A stretch of 42,288 nucleotides of DNA from Candidatus Saccharimonadota bacterium (GTDB taxonomy: Bacteria; Patescibacteriota; Saccharimonadia; Saccharimonadales; Saccharimonadaceae): contig JAPUEH010000023.1 of assembly GCA_027492635.1 (NCBI GenBank), positions 1 through 42,288 on the forward strand, in the 5' to 3' direction. The translations under genes and the position numbers were made by a program. Positions 14,813 through 41,658 of the stretch are shown in pieces. Each line of letters opens with the position of its first letter. Within the stretch, counting starts at the first letter, position 1. The notes under the pieces are model-generated. The model had not been told where the DNA came from, did not search any database, and saw only the letters and a program-made list of their open reading frames with translations.

Positions 14813-14887
14813 CGGGATATGGCGCAGCCTGGTAGCGCATCGTTTTTACAAAAGCGAAGGTCGCAGGTTCGAATCCTGTTATCCCGA
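14813..14887 (+). tRNA. tRNA-like gene 1 with 18-nt anticodon arm
   Basis: The cloverleaf is clear. The acceptor CGGGATA (14813-14819) pairs with TATCCCG (14880-14886), the D arm is GCGC/GCGC with an AGCCTGGTA loop, and the T arm is GCAGG-TTCGAAT-CCTGT with a 5-nt variable loop. The anticodon arm between them is 18 nt instead of 17, giving an 8-nt loop TTTACAAA. If the first loop base after the standard U33 counts, the anticodon would be TAC (Val). The same arm can fold as a 7-bp stem with a TACA tetraloop. CCA is not encoded. It may be a functional odd tRNA, a degenerate copy or a tRNA-like RNA. Confidence 0.6.
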
Positions 14888-15093: not shown

Positions 15094-15168
15094 GGGAGTA
15101 TAGCTCAGTTGGTAGAGCACTCGTCATTCGTGACGAGAGGTCGCAGGTTCGAATCCTGTTACTACCCG
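15094..15168 (+). tRNA. tRNA-like gene 2 with 18-nt anticodon arm and mispaired acceptor
   Basis: D arm GCTC/GAGC and T arm GCAGG-TTCGAAT-CCTGT are standard. The acceptor GGGAGTA faces TACTACCC, so either one A is bulged or, counting the G at 15093, an 8-bp acceptor with one G/A mismatch forms. The anticodon arm CTCGTCATTCGTGACGAG is 18 nt and forms a perfect 7-bp stem with a TTCG tetraloop; with a 5-bp stem the loop has 8 nt and no clear U33-anticodon register. CCA is not encoded. A translating tRNA seems doubtful; a tRNA-like or decayed gene is possible. Confidence 0.5.
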
Positions 15169-24945: not shown

Positions 24946-26346
24946 TTATTCCTGAGCCGTCGGCTCGGACGAAACCGACGAATCCGTCGCATCGGTTGCC
25001 GACGAATCGTCAGCATCCGATGTGTCTGGAGTTTCCGGAGTCACCTGGCCGGGCGACTCCGGATTCGACGAATCCACATCCGAGTCCGACACCGCAAGCG
25101 GGTCGTTCGTGACGACCGGACTAGGTTCGGGCTCAGGTTCCGTGACGTTGTTCTCCGAATCGGAGATCGCAGTCGTGTCGGGCGCAGGTTCCACCGGAGT
25201 TGCCGTCACAGGCACCTCCGGAAGCACCGTGGGCGTGGCTGCGGCCGGCTCTTGACCAGTAGCCACCTCGCTCGGCATCGTCACCGAGTACGAACTCGAC
25301 GAAACGGGCACAGTCGACAGACCGTGAATCGGCACCGCAGCATTGCCGGGTGTCGGCTCGGAGATCTTGTAGAACTTCTGCCACGCAGCGTCCCACTCAG
25401 CCAGATCGTCCGCTGTGTACTCGATGCCGAGCGAGTCGTACAGCGCAGCCGTCGCCAACGCGAACGGGTGCGCTGTCTTGAACACCGAGTACATCGTGGC
25501 ACCGTCATCACTCAGATACGTGGTCGACGGACCCAGCGAGGTGATGGTGCCATAGTGCTGTGGACCCCGACCGCTGTGAACGGTCAAGAATCCAGCCGCA
25601 TTGACGGCGAGCGACGAAATCGGCCGCAGCGGCTGCCACTGCCAATTCGCCACCGGATCACCCGTCAGGATGACGGAGGTGACCGCCGTGTCGCCAGTAG
25701 CGCCCGGATCACGAGCACCATCCGACTTGACGCCGATCACACCCAGGAGTTCGGGCAGAAGCGGCTGGCTAGCCACCCACTGCTTGACACCCCACGGACC
25801 ACGAGGATCCGACATGAGCACCACGAGCACGCCAGGAGGAATCACACCCTCCGCGTATGCCTCTTCCACGGCGTTGCCGAGCGCATCCGCACCCTGCGAG
25901 TAGCCGTTGAAGATCACCAGCACACCGGGCGGATTGTCGTTCAGTGCACGGAAGACGGCCAGGTTGCCCTGAACCGCCTTTTCCTTGGACTTGTCGTAGC
26001 TCGGTGCGAAGAAGGGCAGCAACGCACCCGACTTGCCCGAGATGATCGGACCAACCGACTCCGGATACTGCACCACATACGTGGTGCGCGTACCCGAGAG
26101 GCCGGCCGTACGGTCGAGCAACGACGTGTCGTCGGTACCCGGCGTGATGATCACGATCGCCGGCAGACCAGGATACCAATCCTGGGTGTTGTCGGGACGC
26201 GTGCCATCGGAGATGACACCCGAATCGATCAGACCCTGGATGTTCGGCGGCACGGCCGCCGATGCAGTCACTGGCACAGCCAGCAGGGCGGCAGTAGCCG
26301 CCATACCAGCGCCGAGGGTGGACATGGACGTGAGAGAGCGAGCCAC
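24946..26346 (-). CDS. Secreted PE-PPE-domain serine hydrolase
   Basis: A 466-residue secreted protein. A signal peptide (1-30, ending Ala-Ser-Ala-Ala) leads an alpha/beta-hydrolase domain of PE-PPE type (about 60-330): Ile-Thr-Pro-Gly-Thr-Asp-Asp, the nucleophile elbow Gly-Tyr-Ser150-Gln-Gly-Ala-Asp, and Leu-Thr-Gly-Asp-Pro-Val-Ala-Asn. A Ser/Thr/Pro/Glu/Asp-rich low-complexity tail (about 355-466) looks like a wall-spanning linker. The family is known from Mycobacteriales as esterases or hydrolases of cell-envelope lipids. A GTG start follows AAAGGAG with 6 nt spacing. Third-position GC is very high compared with the atp genes. By inference it was acquired from an actinobacterial host and acts on that host's envelope. 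Confidence 0.85.
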   Translation of the reverse strand: MARSLTSMSTLGAGMAATAALLAVPVTASAAVPPNIQGLIDSGVISDGTRPDNTQDWYPGLPAIVIITPGTDDTSLLDRTAGLSGTRTTYVVQYPESVGPIISGKSGALLPFFAPSYDKSKEKAVQGNLAVFRALNDNPPGVLVIFNGYSQGADALGNAVEEAYAEGVIPPGVLVVLMSDPRGPWGVKQWVASQPLLPELLGVIGVKSDGARDPGATGDTAVTSVILTGDPVANWQWQPLRPISSLAVNAAGFLTVHSGRGPQHYGTITSLGPSTTYLSDDGATMYSVFKTAHPFALATAALYDSLGIEYTADDLAEWDAAWQKFYKISEPTPGNAAVPIHGLSTVPVSSSSYSVTMPSEVATGQEPAAATPTVLPEVPVTATPVEPAPDTTAISDSENNVTEPEPEPSPVVTNDPLAVSDSDVDSSNPESPGQVTPETPDTSDADDSSATDATDSSVSSEPTAQE

Positions 26347-26568: not shown

Positions 26569-27528
26569 CTAGCTCGCGGCTGCCAATGGCGGCAGGACGG
26601 GCTTCTCCTCTTCGAGGGCGATCTCGACAACCTCGGGCAGTGCTTCGACCATAACAGGTCGAGTAGCTACTATCCAGTTGCGCCGAATCGCGACGATGCT
26701 GACTGACTTTTCGCCCGGTACGGTGACGGGTGCAAGCATCGCAAGCACCCGCATGAGCCCTTCGTCACATCGAACGCCCTTTGTCCGCAGAAACTGTCCG
26801 ACAGGATGGGCTGCATTCAAGACCACGTGGGTCGTCGAACTGTCAGCCGACTGCCGAACACTCCGCAGGCTGAGCGTTCCCACTCGTGACGCACTTTCGC
26901 GCCCAAGTCCAGCATGAGTCATGAAAAACCCAAAGATCGTGTTCAGTACGAACCCAATCGGATTTTTCCACCACACCTCAAACGCCGTCACAGGATCACC
27001 CACGATAGCAATTGAGGTCACGCGGATGTCACCCATCAGCTGTTCGTCAGCAGCACCATTGCGAGCAGCGCCACAAAATCGCTCCAGCAGCCACGCTACC
27101 AAGGGATGATGACGCCCCAGATGCGGCTTGAAACCGGTCGAACTACGGGGATGACCCCACACAATCAGCTCGATTTCTGCATCTGGCTTGATGCCGAGCT
27201 TACGCAGGCCAGCGACCGCCAGCCATGCTGCTTCGGCACCTTGCGAGTAGCCGACGATGACAACCTTGCCCGAGATACCTCGAACGGCCTCGGTCGTCGC
27301 GGCAATTGCCTTAGCGCACGACGTGTCATAGCGATCGGCTCGAAGGCCTCCGACGACCGGTCCGACAGTGGCAGGGTAGTCGATGACCACGAGCCTTGAA
27401 AACAGCTCAACAAACCACTTCAACCAGCAGAGGAGGTTTTTACCCCCTCTGTCATCTGTTCCCGGTACGACAACAAGTGTCGCACCCTGAGAGGCAAGCC
27501 CCTTAATGTACTCATTCGCATACTGCAT
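26569..27528 (-). CDS. PE-PPE-domain serine hydrolase, no signal peptide
   Basis: A 319-residue paralogue of the neighbouring hydrolase. It shows Val-Val-Pro-Gly-Thr-Asp-Asp near the N-terminus, Tyr-Pro-Ala-Thr-Val-Gly-Pro, the elbow Gly-Tyr-Ser95-Gln-Gly-Ala-Glu and Ile-Val-Gly-Asp-Pro-Val-Thr. It lacks both the signal peptide and the Ser/Thr-rich tail, so it is cytoplasmic or exported by another route; a middle hydrophobic stretch (Pro-Ile-Gly-Phe-Val-Leu-Asn-Thr-Ile-Phe-Gly-Phe) may touch membrane. ATG 27528 is preferred because GGAG is 9 nt upstream. Third-position GC is high. The pair may be a duplication after or before transfer. Confidence 0.82.
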   Translation of the reverse strand: MQYANEYIKGLASQGATLVVVPGTDDRGGKNLLCWLKWFVELFSRLVVIDYPATVGPVVGGLRADRYDTSCAKAIAATTEAVRGISGKVVIVGYSQGAEAAWLAVAGLRKLGIKPDAEIELIVWGHPRSSTGFKPHLGRHHPLVAWLLERFCGAARNGAADEQLMGDIRVTSIAIVGDPVTAFEVWWKNPIGFVLNTIFGFFMTHAGLGRESASRVGTLSLRSVRQSADSSTTHVVLNAAHPVGQFLRTKGVRCDEGLMRVLAMLAPVTVPGEKSVSIVAIRRNWIVATRPVMVEALPEVVEIALEEEKPVLPPLAAAS

Positions 27529-27613
27529 GCGAATCAACTCCTTGTTGTCGGTGGGAGAATGTATAAGATTCTACCAGTACTAAATTCACCTTGCAGCGGA
27601 TGCCACGAGGGAC

Positions 27614-36446: not shown

Positions 36447-36455
36447 ATTATAACA
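36447..36455 (-). promoter_or_regulatory. Extended -10 promoter of the LOG-like gene
   Basis: Minus strand TGTTATAAT ends 9 nt before the ATG at 36437. Confidence 0.6.
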
Positions 36456-36492
36456 TGATTACTTGTAAAAAACAACAAAACGTATACCTCTG

Positions 36493-36501
36493 TGTTACAC
36501 T
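36493..36501 (+). promoter_or_regulatory. Extended -10 promoter, leaderless start of hisI
   Basis: TGTTACACT ends 7 nt before the ATG at 36509; no ribosome-binding site. Confidence 0.6.
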
Positions 36502-36508
36502 AAACAGT

Positions 36509-36838
36509 ATGGAATTAGATTTCAAGAAGCTAGACGGGCTTATACCGGCCATTATACAAAACGATCATGATAAGACAGTGCTTATGGTTGGCTTTATGAA
36601 TAAAGACGCATACAAGAAAACTCAAGAAAGTGGCTATGTGTATTTTTGGAGTAGGACGCGGCAATCTTTATGGATGAAGGGTGAGACATCGGGCAACAGA
36701 CTAAAAGTTATTTCTCTTGCTATAGACTGCGATAACGATACACTGCTCGCTAACGTCAAGATCGAAGGTGACGGCGTATGCTGTCACACAGGACGCAAGA
36801 GCTGCTTCTTCAGGAAAATGGAATTTAGTGATCTTTAA
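36509..36838 (+). CDS. hisI: Phosphoribosyl-AMP cyclohydrolase
   Basis: A 109-residue enzyme for the third step of histidine synthesis, opening the adenine ring of phosphoribosyl-AMP. It shows Val-Leu-Met-Val-Gly-Phe-Met-Asn, Tyr-Phe-Trp-Ser-Arg-Thr-Arg-Gln-Ser-Leu-Trp-Met-Lys-Gly-Glu-Thr-Ser-Gly-Asn, Asp-Cys-Asp-Asn-Asp-Thr with the Asp metal ligands, and the zinc ligands Cys-Cys-His-Thr-Gly-Arg-Lys-Ser-Cys. It is the single-domain form, with hisE as a separate gene 2.3 kb away. ATG 36509 is chosen by the leaderless promoter; the longer frame to 36455 runs through promoter sequence. It overlaps the convergent unknown gene by 14 nt. Confidence 0.94.
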   Translation: MELDFKKLDGLIPAIIQNDHDKTVLMVGFMNKDAYKKTQESGYVYFWSRTRQSLWMKGETSGNRLKVISLAIDCDNDTLLANVKIEGDGVCCHTGRKSCFFRKMEFSDL

Positions 36839-37904
36839 TATAGTCGGGCAAATCACCGGTTTTCAGATAGTGGCTAAAGTCGTCGTATGTGATTGACAGT
36901 TGTCCATTTGTTTCTATTCGCCGAGCAAGGTCGTTGAATTCCTCGAGAGATAAAACGGTTTGCGCCATGCGCCTTGCTCTATCGCTTGCTGCCATATTTA
37001 TTGTTTCTGATCTTCGTGCAAATTGATATAATGCAACGGCGCCATATGTTCTAAGACTTAATCGTTGTTTTGGATCGATTAACTTGGATTGCTCGAAAAG
37101 AAAATCTTCGTAAAGGTAGGGATTTCCACTTCGCGCCCTGTATTCGTGTGCGAAATCACCCCTTGATACACCGCTCGACACGGCGTTGCGCGGAGCGAGC
37201 ACTAGGTTGCCAACTAGATAACTGACGAGCTTTTCTTTGACGCCATCACTTACTTCAGTGCGATATTGAGTTAATTCAGTAGGGCTGACAGGGCTAGAAG
37301 AGGCGTTACGCAGATTGAGCGGCGACTGTAGCGGATAAAACTCCCCTGACTCTAGTCGAAAGCTTGGTATCGAAAGCTCGTCTATAAACTCATTTGTTTG
37401 CTGAGACGGAAAATCAGTCGGATCTTGTGTGTCGTTTTCGTCCGTACAGTAGTATACGCCCGCTATAGTGTTCGCCCTCACGTTGACTTCATTATAAAGC
37501 GCACGAGAGTGTATCGCGCTCGACATTTGTTCTTCTGGATTTATGTTCTCAAGTCTATCTAGAAAAATGGAGATTACGTCATCGTCAACTACGGAGGTCG
37601 TAGCGTCATACGGAAATGCCTGCTCAACTGATCCTGTTCCGATAATCACACCCCATTTTCCGTAGAGGTTTTCGCTAGCGTCTCCAGGGGATACTGTCGA
37701 AGAACAGAGAATCTGATCCTGGCGTAATAAGACGTCAAATAACCGAACGCCACGAAAATCAACGTTACGTCGCGGTCGAAAGGGACCGAGGTTTCCATAA
37801 GGTCGAACAGCACTAACAACGTTTACTCCGTAATCTTCTGCGATAGATTCTACGTCAAACGCTCGACAATGTCTGTCATCTCCTTGGTTCGCTATTTCGC
37901 TCAC
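36825..37904 (-). CDS. Unknown 359-residue protein between hisI and hisG
   Basis: A 359-residue soluble, acidic protein without signal peptide, membrane helix or recognisable catalytic motif. The first half is beta-rich (segments such as Lys-Trp-Gly-Val-Ile-Ile-Gly-Thr-Gly); the second half is helical with many Arg and Glu. GTG 37904 is preferred because GGAG lies 6 nt upstream, whereas a TTG two codons earlier touches it. The gene is read away from hisG and its 5' region faces the T-box promoter. Codon use resembles hisG. It may be lineage-specific; I recognise no family. Confidence 0.7.
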   Translation of the reverse strand: MSEIANQGDDRHCRAFDVESIAEDYGVNVVSAVRPYGNLGPFRPRRNVDFRGVRLFDVLLRQDQILCSSTVSPGDASENLYGKWGVIIGTGSVEQAFPYDATTSVVDDDVISIFLDRLENINPEEQMSSAIHSRALYNEVNVRANTIAGVYYCTDENDTQDPTDFPSQQTNEFIDELSIPSFRLESGEFYPLQSPLNLRNASSSPVSPTELTQYRTEVSDGVKEKLVSYLVGNLVLAPRNAVSSGVSRGDFAHEYRARSGNPYLYEDFLFEQSKLIDPKQRLSLRTYGAVALYQFARRSETINMAASDRARRMAQTVLSLEEFNDLARRIETNGQLSITYDDFSHYLKTGDLPDYIKDH

Positions 37905-37978
37905 ACTCAACTCCCGAGATTTAAGCTTTTACGTATTTTATGCCATAATATACTTTTTGTCAATATGCTCGATTGCTC

Positions 37979-38008
37979 TTGACGATCTTTGCCCTCGTCT
38001 GATATAGT
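37979..38008 (+). promoter_or_regulatory. Promoter of the T-box-hisG operon
   Basis: TTGACG (37979-37984), 18 bp, TATAGT (38003-38008); transcription should start near 38015. Confidence 0.65.
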
Positions 38009-38014
38009 AAATGT

Positions 38015-38194
38015 TGGTTATAAAGCGCTAGAGTTCCAGTCACGCCGGAACGAGCTGGGTGCCAAAATGCACCACGGGAGTGAAGCCGTAAAGTCACACA
38101 ACCGAAATCGCGATCCATCGTAGAGCCGGTACTGAGCGCCAGATTCAGTAATGATTCTTGGAATAAGGATGGGACCGCGGGAGGTCTCTTTTTG
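38015..38194 (+). promoter_or_regulatory. T-box leader, probably sensing tRNA-His
   Basis: A structured 180-nt leader upstream of hisG. Its 3' part holds AAGGATGGGACCGCGG (38165-38180), a good match to the T-box sequence, which base-pairs with the CCA end of uncharged tRNA. GGGACC (38171-38176) and GGTCTC (38183-38188) then form a terminator stem followed by TTTTT (38189-38193), mutually exclusive with the antiterminator. The bulge reads UGGG, so the variable base G pairs with a C discriminator; bacterial tRNA-His carries C73. A basal stem pairs GCGCT (38025-38029) with AGCGC (38135-38139). Several His codons (CAC, CAT) lie between the arms, but I could not settle the specifier loop. Confidence 0.78.
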
Positions 38195-38256
38195 TTTGCC
38201 TCTCGTTCCTTAGAAGATAAAATATCTATTATTTGTCGTACCTAAGGAGGTTCCAT

Positions 38257-39135
38257 ATGGACAAAAGACTAAAAGATGAAAACTTAAAGATAGCAATTCA
38301 GAAGGATGGTCGCCTAACTGAAGAATCATTCAAGGCGCTTCGATTGATGGGGCTTGAATTTGAAGTTTACAACCGAAGGCTTTTTGCGACTTCACGTAAT
38401 TTTCCCGTTGAGGTACTCTTCTGCCGAGATGATGACATCCCTGGCTACATCGAAGATGGTGTCGCAGACATTGGTATTGTCGGGCAAAATATCATTCGCG
38501 AATCAGGTGCGAACGTCACGGAAATCACGAAGCCTGGCTTCGGCTTTTGTAAGCTTGTTATTGCGGTACCGAAAGAATCACAGATTAGCTCCATTGAAGA
38601 CCTAGAGGGCAAAAAGATTGCTACGTCGTTTCCTAATACAACGAAGCAATACTTTGATGATCAAGGGGTAAACATTAAAACGACTACGATTGCTGGTGCG
38701 GTTGAAATCACACCCGCACTAGGAGTTGCTGATGCGATAGCTGATATTACAGCTAGTGGCAGCACGCTGGCGCTTAACGATCTGCGACAGATTGAAACGA
38801 TAATGGAGACAGAAGCGGTATTTATACGGAGCGATAAAAAACTACCCAAGTCCAAGGAGGTTCTTCTGTCTCAGATGATGACTCGTCTCGAAGCCGCGCT
38901 GACTGCAAAAAATCTCAAGTATATCATGATGAATGCGCCCTCAGAGAGTCTCGATGAGATAAAAACTATTGCGCCCGGACTTGATGCCCCCACTGTCATG
39001 GAATTAACGAAGCCTGGTTGGCTTGCTGTGCACGCTGTTATGGATGAGAATACATTTTGGAGTATTGCAAACGACCTAAAAACACTTGGCGCACGTGGGA
39101 TACTAGTACTGCCGATTGAAAAGATGATAGCGTAA
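38257..39135 (+). CDS. hisG: ATP phosphoribosyltransferase, long form
   Basis: A 292-residue first enzyme of histidine synthesis, joining ATP and PRPP. It is the long, self-contained form. The catalytic part (1-about 215) has Ile-Ala-Ile-Gln-Lys-Asp-Gly-Arg-Leu, Asp-Ile-Gly-Ile-Val-Gly, and the PRPP loop region Gly-Ala-Val-Glu-Ile-Thr-Pro-Ala-Leu-Gly-Val-Ala-Asp. The C-terminal domain (about 216-292), with Ala-Pro-Thr-Val-Met-Glu-Leu and Gly-Ala-Arg-Gly-Ile-Leu-Val-Leu-Pro-Ile-Glu-Lys, is the ACT-like domain that binds histidine for feedback inhibition, so no HisZ is needed. ATG 38257 follows AAGGAGG with 7 nt spacing. It leads an operon with hisE and a VanX-like gene and is under a T-box. 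Confidence 0.96.
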   Translation: MDKRLKDENLKIAIQKDGRLTEESFKALRLMGLEFEVYNRRLFATSRNFPVEVLFCRDDDIPGYIEDGVADIGIVGQNIIRESGANVTEITKPGFGFCKLVIAVPKESQISSIEDLEGKKIATSFPNTTKQYFDDQGVNIKTTTIAGAVEITPALGVADAIADITASGSTLALNDLRQIETIMETEAVFIRSDKKLPKSKEVLLSQMMTRLEAALTAKNLKYIMMNAPSESLDEIKTIAPGLDAPTVMELTKPGWLAVHAVMDENTFWSIANDLKTLGARGILVLPIEKMIA

Positions 39136-39147
39136 GGAGAGAATAAT

Positions 39148-39462
39148 ATGACTATTCGTGAATTATACAAAATTATAGAAGATAAAAAGAATAACGCCAC
39201 GGACGACGACTCCTATACGCACTCTCTTTTTACCGAAGGTCTTGATCGAATAATTCAAAAAGTTGGAGAGGAGTCTATCGAGGTAGTGATAGCCGCGAAA
39301 AATAACGATGATCAAGAGTTTGTCGGTGAGGTCGCCGATCTTATCTATCATCTTTCTGTTCTACTTGTAGCCAAGAGTGTCGCTATGGACGATATTGAGC
39401 AAAAACTACAGAACCGACACGAGGACAAAGTTGGGTTGCGGAGCGGGAGTAAACAATTATGA
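39148..39462 (+). CDS. hisE: Phosphoribosyl-ATP pyrophosphohydrolase
   Basis: A 104-residue MazG-fold enzyme of the second histidine step. Visible are Ser-Tyr-Thr-His-Ser-Leu-Phe, Lys-Val-Gly-Glu-Glu-Ser-Ile-Glu-Val-Val-Ile-Ala-Ala-Lys and Glu-Val-Ala-Asp-Leu-Ile-Tyr-His-Leu-Ser-Val-Leu, which hold the Glu/Asp metal ligands. It starts 12 nt after hisG with AAGGAGA upstream and overlaps the next gene (ATGA). It is a stand-alone hisE and pairs with the separate hisI. Confidence 0.95.
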   Translation: MTIRELYKIIEDKKNNATDDDSYTHSLFTEGLDRIIQKVGEESIEVVIAAKNNDDQEFVGEVADLIYHLSVLLVAKSVAMDDIEQKLQNRHEDKVGLRSGSKQL

Positions 39463-40139
39463 ATGACAAAGGTAAATTAAAAGCCATATTGAGTTACGAC
39501 GACGTGGCTCAATATGGCGCCGGATCGAGTAGCGAACCTCTTGTTGCAGTCACTCGTTATGATTCTTCGATTGTCGCTAAGTACAATAAAAAGGACATGG
39601 TTCCAATTACTGGTGACATGATATACGTCAGAGACTCTGTTGCGCAAAAACTAGCTCGCATTGAGACGGATCTTAAAAATAAAGGATATCGCCTTCGTGT
39701 TGCTTATGGCTATCGTCACCCAGACGTACAGCTAGACTATTTTACAAAACGACGTGAGATAGTGTCAAAACAGAGACCCGACCTTAAAGGTAAGAGCCTT
39801 GATAAGTATGTGTACAATTTTGTTGCTACGCTGGATGTTGCAGGACATCCCGCAGGAGCAGCTGTTGACCTAACGTTAGTGACGTTAGACGGTGATGATG
39901 TCGACATGGGCACCGAGATTGCCGACTATAGCAATGAAGAAAAGATTAAAACATACGCATTAGGACTGACGGATGAACAGATTGAAAATCGCAAAATACT
40001 TCACGATGCAATGACCAAGGAAGACTTTGCTCCGTTCTATGGAGAGTGGTGGCACTTCTCGTATGGCGATCGCGAGTGGGCAGCTTTCTACAAAAAGAAA
40101 ACTCTCTATGATGCGATCGATTTTAGAGTAAAAAAATAA
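39459..40139 (+). CDS. VanX-like D-alanyl-D-alanine dipeptidase (peptidase M15D)
   Basis: A 226-residue zinc peptidase of family M15D, which cleaves D-Ala-D-Ala and related dipeptides. The zinc and catalytic residues are His130-x6-Asp137 (Gly-His-Pro-Ala-Gly-Ala-Ala-Val-Asp) and Glu196-Trp-Trp-His199, with Arg86 in Gly-Tyr-Arg-His-Pro, all at VanX-like spacing. There is no signal peptide, so it works in the cytoplasm on imported or recycled wall peptides. It is the last gene of the hisG operon with a 4-nt overlap, an unexpected partner for histidine enzymes. There is no vanA or vanH nearby, so resistance is unlikely. Confidence 0.92.
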   Translation: MNDKGKLKAILSYDDVAQYGAGSSSEPLVAVTRYDSSIVAKYNKKDMVPITGDMIYVRDSVAQKLARIETDLKNKGYRLRVAYGYRHPDVQLDYFTKRREIVSKQRPDLKGKSLDKYVYNFVATLDVAGHPAGAAVDLTLVTLDGDDVDMGTEIADYSNEEKIKTYALGLTDEQIENRKILHDAMTKEDFAPFYGEWWHFSYGDREWAAFYKKKTLYDAIDFRVKK

Positions 40140-40146
40140 TCCTATT

Positions 40147-40199
40147 ACAAAGATTCGTGTGGGTGGAGGCCGTATTTCTACAGCCTCCACCCACTTTGT
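40147..40199. terminator. Bidirectional terminator between the VanX-like and GNAT genes
   Basis: A perfect 12-bp GC-rich stem (40159-40170 with 40183-40194), with ACAAAG and CTTTGT as outer arms. It belongs to the long GC-rich hairpin class seen at the GC-rich genes. Confidence 0.7.
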
Positions 40200-40258
40200 C
40201 GAATTTTGACCTCATCGACATTGGCCAGGTATCTTTTGGCGAGATACCTCTGATTGAG

Positions 40259-40903
40259 TTAGGCGTCGCGAAAGAGCGGGTATCCCTTTTCACGTTGGAT
40301 CGTCTCGATCCTCGCCACCGCCTCCGCGCAGTCGCCCCAGAGGTAAACCCTCTGCAACGACTGGGTGTGATTTTCGGTAGCCTGTTCGATAGACGAAACG
40401 TCCTGGAACTGGTCGAGGGGAATCGCCCCAGACTTCGCGTACATCGGCATCGAATTTGATCCGACCCGTGCTGTACGCATGAAGTACTGGTGGCTTCCTT
40501 GCGCAATGGCCTGAACCATACGCTGTCGCACCAACTCCCAAGCAACGCCCTTGCCGCGATAGGAGTTGCGCACTCCCAGTTCAGACATGTACCAAGCATT
40601 TCGGTGATCGAAAGCATCGGGCAAGTCCTTGTTGCGGTGAAGATACTCCAAAAATTCTTGGACATCTTCGGGTGAGCTCTTGAATGGAACAGCGCATCCG
40701 AAACCGATCAGCTTGTCGCTATCGGTAGCGTATACCACCATGCCATCCTCCATGTGAGGGGTGATGATCTCCTCACGAACTTCGTCATCAGAGTACTCTT
40801 CGAAGTACGGAGGCCCGCCAAAGGCCTCCTTGTACGTCTCGATGAACTCTGATTCGTTGAGCACTTGTGGTGCGGCCAAGCCGCACCAGAGTTTGTTCGT
40901 CAA
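40259..40903 (-). CDS. GNAT-family N-acetyltransferase
   Basis: A 214-residue GNAT fold protein. The acetyl-CoA pyrophosphate loop is Arg-Gly-Lys-Gly-Val-Ala in Val-Arg-Asn-Ser-Tyr-Arg-Gly-Lys-Gly, following the strand Trp-Tyr-Met-Ser-Glu-Leu-Gly. The N-terminal part carries an extra acidic helix. Substrate unknown. It overlaps the racemase-like gene by 4 nt and is translated after it, so it may acetylate the racemase product or a related amino acid; this is inference. Codon use is GC-rich like its partner. Confidence 0.85.
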   Translation of the reverse strand: MTNKLWCGLAAPQVLNESEFIETYKEAFGGPPYFEEYSDDEVREEIITPHMEDGMVVYATDSDKLIGFGCAVPFKSSPEDVQEFLEYLHRNKDLPDAFDHRNAWYMSELGVRNSYRGKGVAWELVRQRMVQAIAQGSHQYFMRTARVGSNSMPMYAKSGAIPLDQFQDVSSIEQATENHTQSLQRVYLWGDCAEAVARIETIQREKGYPLFRDA

Positions 40904-41658
40904 CGAACGACCTCCATCTCACTCGAGAGGATCACGCGATCCTCTGTGACTTCCGCCGAGATAACTTTCCCGGTCGGCTGAATTATAGAAGAGGTGGCTG
41001 TCACCTTTCCGACTGCGATAGTCCCTGAGCCGCAAGACGACTCGTAGTAGAACGTATCCACTGCTCGCACCCACACAACGGGATGGATTACGATTGCGTC
41101 CTGTTCCCTCTGGAACCACACGACACCAACGGCATCACGTTCGCCCAGATTGAACTGCTCGACAATCTGCCGATGCTTGAGGGTATACACCTCTTTATCT
41201 TCAGGGAAGGCCCCTTCGATAACAACGTGCACAATCCCTCCCAGGTCAACGATCGAAGCGGGTGTACCGTCTTCGAGCGTAACCTCCTTCGTATCGACCA
41301 TCATTCCAGGGAATGCGACTTCAACGAAGAACGTTGTGTCAGTCAAAGACTTTACCGAGGCATGAACAGCTCCGGTGAAACCAGAAACCGTGAAGGACAA
41401 GTCATCCTTATCGTATTCCTGATAGAGTAGAACTGCCGCAGAGCGTGTTGCGTTACCGCAGAACTCTCCGCCAGCCATCTCGAAGTGATTCTCGTCCAAG
41501 ACGAGGAATCCTGCCTGTTCGGCGCCAAGATTCTCGAAATCACTCTCGAGAATCTTGCCACGGGATTCGTAATCGCCGCGAGCGAGAGCTCGGTTAATGA
41601 TCTCGATTGCCGTTCCGTTTCCGCCAGCGGCGGTAACGAGCTTCTGTTTGGTCTTCAC
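40900..41658 (-). CDS. DapF-fold amino-acid racemase, CntK (histidine racemase)-like
   Basis: A 252-residue two-lobed epimerase of the diaminopimelate epimerase fold. The two catalytic Cys are Cys67 in Gly-Gly-Glu-Phe-Cys-Gly-Asn-Ala-Thr-Arg-Ser and Cys209 in Glu-Ser-Ser-Cys-Gly-Ser-Gly-Thr, so a cofactor-free two-base mechanism is expected. The Glu-Phe-Cys-Gly-Asn-Ala-Thr wording is that of CntK-type histidine racemases of staphylopine synthesis rather than DapF (Cys-Gly-Asn-Gly-x-Arg). No CntL/CntM genes are in the window. The location next to hisS and the hisG operon also points to histidine. A GTG start follows AGGAGG with 4 nt spacing. DapF or another amino acid remains possible. Confidence 0.78.
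   Translation of the reverse strand: MKTKQKLVTAAGGNGTAIEIINRALARGDYESRGKILESDFENLGAEQAGFLVLDENHFEMAGGEFCGNATRSAAVLLYQEYDKDDLSFTVSGFTGAVHASVKSLTDTTFFVEVAFPGMMVDTKEVTLEDGTPASIVDLGGIVHVVIEGAFPEDKEVYTLKHRQIVEQFNLGERDAVGVVWFQREQDAIVIHPVVWVRAVDTFYYESSCGSGTIAVGKVTATSSIIQPTGKVISAEVTEDRVILSSEMEVVR

Follow-up and report, generated by a model that had tools for sequence, protein, structure and literature searches.

A histidine T-box leader upstream of hisG in Saccharibacteria with two putative successive gates

The hisG gene of a Saccharibacterium (Candidatus Saccharimonadota bacterium, assembly GCA_027492635.1) is preceded by a full-length T-box leader, from 38019 to about 38256 of the window, by which we mean the whole stretch of DNA analysed (42,288 nt of contig JAPUEH010000023.1). 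We regard this leader as a genuine T-box switch that appears to read uncharged tRNA-His. Its layout is best explained by a T-box riboswitch specific for histidine that has two gates in succession, a reading to which we assign a probability of about 0.85; tRNA binding and switching are inferred. Against it stand the lack of any experiment and an Rfam score far below the cut-off.

Leader architecture and tRNA specificity

The RNA architecture, the histidine specificity and the conservation of the leader can be demonstrated from its sequence. A previous sequence-only reading had placed a T-box within 38015-38194, upstream of hisG, and had proposed a covariance search with the Rfam model RF00230 and an alignment of homologous hisG leaders as checks. 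Both bear the T-box out. RF00230 matches 38019-38213 end to end (model positions 1 to 219) at 26.1 bits, with an E-value of 7.7e-4 in 600 nt and of 3e-4 in a search of the whole genome (1.01 Mb); in homologous leaders the structure pairs far beyond chance (see below). The score is far below the RF00230 gathering score of 93 bits, and an Rfam scan at the gathering threshold reports no T-box in the window; this threshold is set by the database and is no biological property. The sequence-only reading located the motif, hairpin, U-tract and hisG correctly. Its span stopped short at the 3' end, leaving out the 3' strand of the antiterminator (38199-38212) as well as the Shine-Dalgarno region (38242-38256). 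The parts of the leader are:

37979..38008, plus strand: predicted sigma-70-type promoter TTGACG-18-TATAGT, directly 5' of Stem I (consensus scan, 10/12 matches, TG before the second hexamer)
38024..38056, plus strand: ultrashort Stem I, with base AGC/GCU, kink-turn-like internal loop GCUAGA / GA, arm GUUCC/GGAAC and apical loop AGUCACGCC
38033-38037/38047-38051, plus strand: Stem I arm GUUCC/GGAAC, 100% formed, double-sided changes in 4/4 counted pairs
38041..38043, plus strand: specifier codon CAC (His) in the Stem I apical loop, CAC in 15/15 aligned leaders (columns 23-25 of alignment A2)
38058..38073, plus strand: Stem II hairpin GGUGC/GCACC, double-sided changes in 4/4 counted pairs
38074..38097, plus strand: Stem IIA/B pseudoknot ACGG/CCGU, loop GUGA (38080-38083) pairing with UCAC (38094-38097)
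38101..38130, plus strand: additional stem ACCG/CGGU between IIA/B and Stem III, 96.7% paired, double-sided changes in 4/4 pairs
38134..38163, plus strand: Stem III with purine strings, GAGCG-stem-AA, fitting the RRRxG...AA motif by sequence
38164..38212, plus strand: antiterminator/antisequestrator, with helix A1 UAAGGA/UCCUUA, 7-nt bulge UGGGACC (38170-38176) and helix A2 GCGGGAGG/CCUCUCGU, which opens with G-U
38171..38193, plus strand: T1, a nested terminator-like hairpin GGGACC/GGUCUC followed by UUUUU, its 5' arm within the T-box bulge (dG -8.4 kcal/mol)
38206..38249, plus strand: sequestrator, UUCCUUAG (38206-38213) with CUAAGGAG (38242-38249), covering the hisG Shine-Dalgarno
38244..38251, plus strand: hisG Shine-Dalgarno AAGGAGGU, by sequence
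38169..38256, plus strand: possible second OFF helix, AUGGGACC (38169-38176) with GGUUCCAU (38249-38256), from the minimum-energy fold of the leader

The T-box motif AGGAUGGGACCGCG (38166-38179), with its UGGG bulge, departs once from the T-box sequence AGGGUGGNACCGCG. At about 33 nt, Stem I does not meet the class I criterion of a long Stem I with a distal double T-loop; a UGA/GA sequence in most leaders would fit a kink-turn, as judged from sequence alone. Stem I had been described as outside the classical layout, which holds in that it is ultrashort and carries the specifier in its apical loop; the CAC specifier itself had been overlooked. An S-turn was sought in the short Stem II hairpin and no clear one was found. 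The additional stem at 38101-38130 is mostly an insertion relative to RF00230 in the alignment. The antiterminator comprises 14 pairs, with A1 paired in 98.9% and A2 in 95.8% of cells (15 sequences). The discriminator domain has the parts described in PMC7583486, namely the 7-nt bulge, the G-U opening A2 and the arrangement RRRxG-Stem III-AA, a motif flanking Stem III that is listed in Table 1 of that paper. In T-boxes the terminal G-U pair of A2 senses the aminoacyl group (PMC7583486); here this pair is G-U in 15/15 leaders.

The ligand is suggested at both ends of the tRNA. Anticodon GUG of the genome's tRNA-His matches the CAC specifier, and among 37 CCA-bearing tRNAs recovered by ARAGORN, C73 occurs only in tRNA-His. 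UGGG therefore fits one tRNA, within the limits of a recovery that is incomplete (no Phe in the list). That the variable T-box base G would pair with the C discriminator of tRNA-His had been predicted from the sequence, and the C73 of the genome's own tRNA-His agrees; together with the invariant specifier, this supports the proposed histidine specificity. Unlike the 37 other recovered tRNAs, two tRNA-like genes in the window (14813-14887 and 15094-15167) lack both an encoded CCA and a 7-nt anticodon loop; a GC-rich short reading frame separates the two.

Homologous leaders and T-boxes across the class

HisG relatives are rare, found in 8 of the 393 class genomes, and four class genomes besides that of the window carry the leader 5' of hisG (L035, L036, L038 and L040). 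A DNA search with the hisG leader in 60 relatives gave no match. An exact search for ATAAGGATGGGACCGCGG in the GTDB genome collection (84,980 species) gave 24 places, 20 of which are leaders like that of hisG, in Saccharibacteria and in genomes of other candidate phyla; most of the latter are of the Microgenomates type (Daviesbacteria, Blackburnbacteria, Woesebacteria, Amesbacteria, Gottesmanbacteria, Shapirobacteria, Levyibacteriota and one labelled Paceibacterota). The layout of one of these leaders, L051, is divergent. The four remaining places, in Bacteroidales (L045, L052, L060 and L061), match the T-box pattern but have none of the other leader features and are alike in sequence context; they were excluded. 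A record labelled Actinomycetes (L062) shares its leader with L053. The record of TM7 HOT-348, an oral saccharibacterium, also has the leader. Genome G161, from the family of the window's genome, has a leader identical to that on DDEW01000019.1 ('Candidatus Saccharibacteria bacterium UBA1944'), which identifies the window's organism as a saccharibacterium.

Covariation was assessed on 15 leaders from Saccharibacteria and Microgenomates-type genomes (alignment A2). The named structure pairs in 97.3% of cells, against at most 47% when partners are slid, and 21 of 35 pairs have double-sided changes. Such changes fill 89 cells, compared with 25 +/- 4.5 in shuffles (0/500). Complementarity of the IIA/B loop and its partner is likewise high (140.5 vs 96.7 +/- 7.4 for swapped partners; 0/2000). 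The minimum-energy fold of the whole leader reaches only z -1.66 vs shuffles.

A covariance model built from the His-type leaders (R1) matches 38 of 380 phylum genomes and 16 of 393 class genomes at E-values up to 0.001. It also detects T-boxes of other specificities, at argG (CGC), trpS (UGG), proS, thrS, glyS and argH. RF00230 itself has matches at E-values up to 0.05 in 102 of 393 class genomes, none of which (0/393) is above the gathering cut-off. The window's genome contains a second T-box (35.7 bits) directly 5' of ileS, identified as isoleucyl-tRNA synthetase from its sequence. T-boxes on ileS are common in the class (L001, at G000:C2:27193-27358, and L005-L032), with an ultrashort Stem I, an AUC specifier in the apical loop of the short hairpin GCAG-CUAUCAA-CUGC, UGGU and ordinary terminators. 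There are also aspS T-boxes with GAC and UGGC, valS T-boxes with GUC and UGGU, and others including proS, all below the Rfam cut-off. Loop triplet and N shift with the amino acid: AUC/U at ileS, GAC/C at aspS, GUC/U at valS, CGC/U at argG and UGG/C at trpS. Because of the ileS, aspS and valS leaders read there, we consider a T-box system in which loop triplet, N of UGGN and gene mutually agree well established in this class, on sequence grounds. The hisG leader belongs to a large T-box family in Saccharibacteria and related groups that escapes standard database cut-offs.

Two putative gates and their alternatives

A consensus scan places the T1 stem-loop at 38171-38188 (GGGACC-GCGGGA-GGUCUC), followed by U5; the 400-nt region holds 2 terminator-like sites, compared with 0.3 expected in shuffles. 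The overlapping terminator and T5 tract reported earlier are thus a real and conserved hairpin; it sits within the antiterminator loop and differs from the usual T-box terminator. T1, a short hairpin of 6 pairs, is present in 24 of 31 His leaders (mean -7.8 vs -1.1 in shuffles). It occurs in two pairing registers, GGACC/GGUCC and GACCGC/GCGGUC, the latter in L043, L047 and L071 with the U-tract retained; in L059 the U-tract behind the hairpin is imperfect. The test missed T1 in 7 of 31 leaders, and it is absent in L044 and L048 (both from Saccharibacteria), L051 and L073 among others. T1 is therefore not essential. The 3' strand of the antiterminator is transcribed later than T1, so that only the tRNA end or upstream structure could counteract T1; this is unproven. 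In two leaders (L043:3682-4022 and L058:3175-3523), similar-looking inserts of >100 nt separate T1 from the 3' strand within the antiterminator loop; neither matches an Rfam family at E-values up to 0.5.

Downstream, UUCCUUAG can pair either with the T-box strand or, alternatively, with the ribosome-binding site of hisG, which meets the translational (class II) criterion. In 10 Saccharibacteria leaders the sequestrator duplex has a mean of -12.7, compared with -10.6 +/- 0.5 for swapped partners (0/1000). The second OFF helix remains a possibility only and is weaker in relatives by eye. The class I criterion, a terminator on the antiterminator 3' strand, is not met in the window and is met in Microgenomates-type relatives. 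In most of these the same 3' strand lies in a near-perfect terminator with a U-tract (-26 to -33 kcal/mol), and the inner hairpin T1 is retained together with this strong second terminator, often directly 5' of a tRNA-His gene. We conclude that there are two gates in series, of which T1 is the less certain.

In the proposed mechanism, uncharged tRNA-His would pair through its anticodon with the CAC loop and through its CCCA end with UGGG. The tRNA end would block T1, whose 5' arm is bulge sequence GGGACC, and RNA polymerase would read on. The tRNA would also favour the UAAGGA/UCCUUA antisequestrator, keeping UCCUUA off the ribosome-binding site and allowing translation of hisG. Charged His-tRNA could not use the bulge; T1 would then end some transcripts and the sequestrator would silence the remainder. 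Binding of tRNA, sensing of aminoacylation, termination at T1 and translational control are inferred here from what is known of the T-box family.

A bolder version, on which we are evenly divided, is that a single tRNA works both gates. The bulge itself is the 5' arm of the early terminator, so the CCCA end of tRNA-His would itself serve as the antiterminator, at a stage when no antiterminator helix has yet formed. The second gate, a Shine-Dalgarno sequestrator here and a second terminator in Microgenomates-type relatives, would then decide again, and in several Microgenomates-type genomes the switch would drive the gene of its own ligand, tRNA-His.

The alternative that survives best is a purely translational T-box, in which hisG is controlled by the Shine-Dalgarno sequestrator alone and T1 is either a pause site or part of the alternative fold. 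The covarying sequestrator, kept without T1 in L044 and L048, speaks for this reading, and we cannot dismiss it; we doubt it, given that T1 and its U-tract persist in 24 of 31 leaders and that T1 re-pairs in the second register with the U-tract kept. A classical transcriptional T-box with the overlapping hairpin as its only gate, as originally proposed from the sequence, is improbable. The hairpin and U5 do overlap the T-box, and ordinary terminators are found in the ileS T-boxes of the same class, but here the hairpin lies inside the antiterminator loop without sharing the 3' strand, and a covarying sequestrator follows. Attenuation by a histidine-rich leader peptide was rejected as very improbable: the short frame at 38067 (MHHGSEAVKSHNRNRDPS) has 3 His in 18 residues, but neither its start codon nor its His codons are conserved, homologues reading AAAAUGCGC, AAAAUACAC or AAAAUCGGG. 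A functionless look-alike, decayed or arisen by chance, would account for the score under the Rfam cut-off and is practically ruled out by strong covariation across distant genomes and by the second T-box, on ileS, in the same genome.

Associated genes and comparison with known systems

Three genes follow the leader, the first confirmed as hisG, as had been supposed:

38257..39135, plus strand: hisG, ATP phosphoribosyltransferase (TIGR00070, E 5.6e-60)
39148..39462, plus strand: hisE, phosphoribosyl-ATP diphosphatase (TIGR03188, E 1.4e-28)
39459..40139, plus strand: M15 (VanX-like) peptidase (PF01427, E 3.3e-16)

In the window's genome, which is 96% complete, hisG, hisE and hisI are present (window region 36455-39462 and genome), and family searches of it found no HisA/F, HisB or HisD. 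On this evidence it cannot complete histidine synthesis by the standard route, and a truncated histidine pathway is under a His switch. The first steps may have some other purpose, or else an intermediate may be exchanged with a host.

Elsewhere, His T-boxes precede a range of genes, some named from sequence only. VanX-like M15 peptidase genes have their own His T-box in L044, L048, L064 and L098; genome G377 has two, on hisG and on the M15 peptidase gene (L098 and L110). The hisS gene is under a His T-box in L073 and L077, and as second gene in L042. Other downstream genes encode M20 peptidases (L054 and L072), a histidine ammonia-lyase family protein (L070) and histidine-racemase-like proteins of the DapF fold (L071, and second gene in L064); matches of the racemase-like proteins are far below the NCBI cut-off, so only the family is claimed. 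In Microgenomates-type genomes, a His T-box lies directly 5' of a tRNA-His gene in L043, L047, L049, L055, L057, L058, L059 and L072, apparently a switch controlling its own ligand. The window has a similar gene set around hisG, with hisE, the M15 peptidase and a convergent GNAT and racemase-like pair. M15 peptidase, GNAT and racemase-like genes recur under or near His T-boxes (window 39459-41658, L064:3635-5903 and L071:1750-2580), in L064 as one run directly behind the T-box. As the switch reports histidine, a histidine-related role is suggested for the linked M15 peptidase and racemase-like proteins.

Apart from the leader, the window encodes on its minus strand two proteins (24946-26346 and 26569-27537) that we take to resemble the mycobacterial PE-PPE hydrolase domain; they were possibly acquired from an actinobacterial host. 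By sequence, 1290-2861 encodes a large serine recombinase, a possible mobile element near the window start.

T-boxes are known mainly from Gram-positive bacteria. We found no literature on a T-box in Saccharibacteria, Patescibacteria, Microgenomates, Parcubacteria or the candidate phyla radiation, in line with the earlier suggestion that one in a Saccharibacterium would be new or poorly described; subscription papers were not covered, so priority is unproven. In TBDB the translational model was applied to Actinobacteria and, apart from these, to sequences that came from the class I model (PMC7778990), which would explain why T-boxes of candidate phyla were missed. T-boxes are now placed across Saccharibacteria and other candidate phyla, and their apparent specificities include His, Ile, Asp, Val, Arg, Trp and Pro. 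They provide a handle on starvation sensing in these amino-acid-poor bacteria, suggest that one tRNA can work two gates in series, and occur before tRNA genes.

The hisG leader resembles the translational (class II) ileS T-boxes of Actinobacteria in a short Stem I whose hairpin loop carries the specifier (PMC3896937), in its IIA/B pseudoknot and in an antisequestrator that frees the Shine-Dalgarno (PMC7583486, PMC10651847). It differs in its His specificity, the extra stem between IIA/B and Stem III, T1 in the antisequestrator loop and its Saccharibacteria host. With the transcriptional His T-boxes of Firmicutes (RF00230; PMC9413887) it shares tRNA-His specificity, control of a his gene and the T-box motif; those are found by the standard RF00230 model, whereas the hisG leader scores 26.1 vs 93 and has an ultrashort Stem I and a translational downstream gate. 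Transcriptional T-boxes generally require a long Stem I (PMC7583486). The terminating relatives of the hisG leader, with their ultrashort Stem I, go against this requirement and are an exception to the rule. The leader is also like that of Corynebacterium glutamicum hisD, a proposed His-tRNA switch hiding the Shine-Dalgarno (PMC3896937), for which the same paper leaves undecided whether it is a T-box. The hisD leader has UGGA and is without Stems II and III, whereas the hisG leader has all domains and UGGG.
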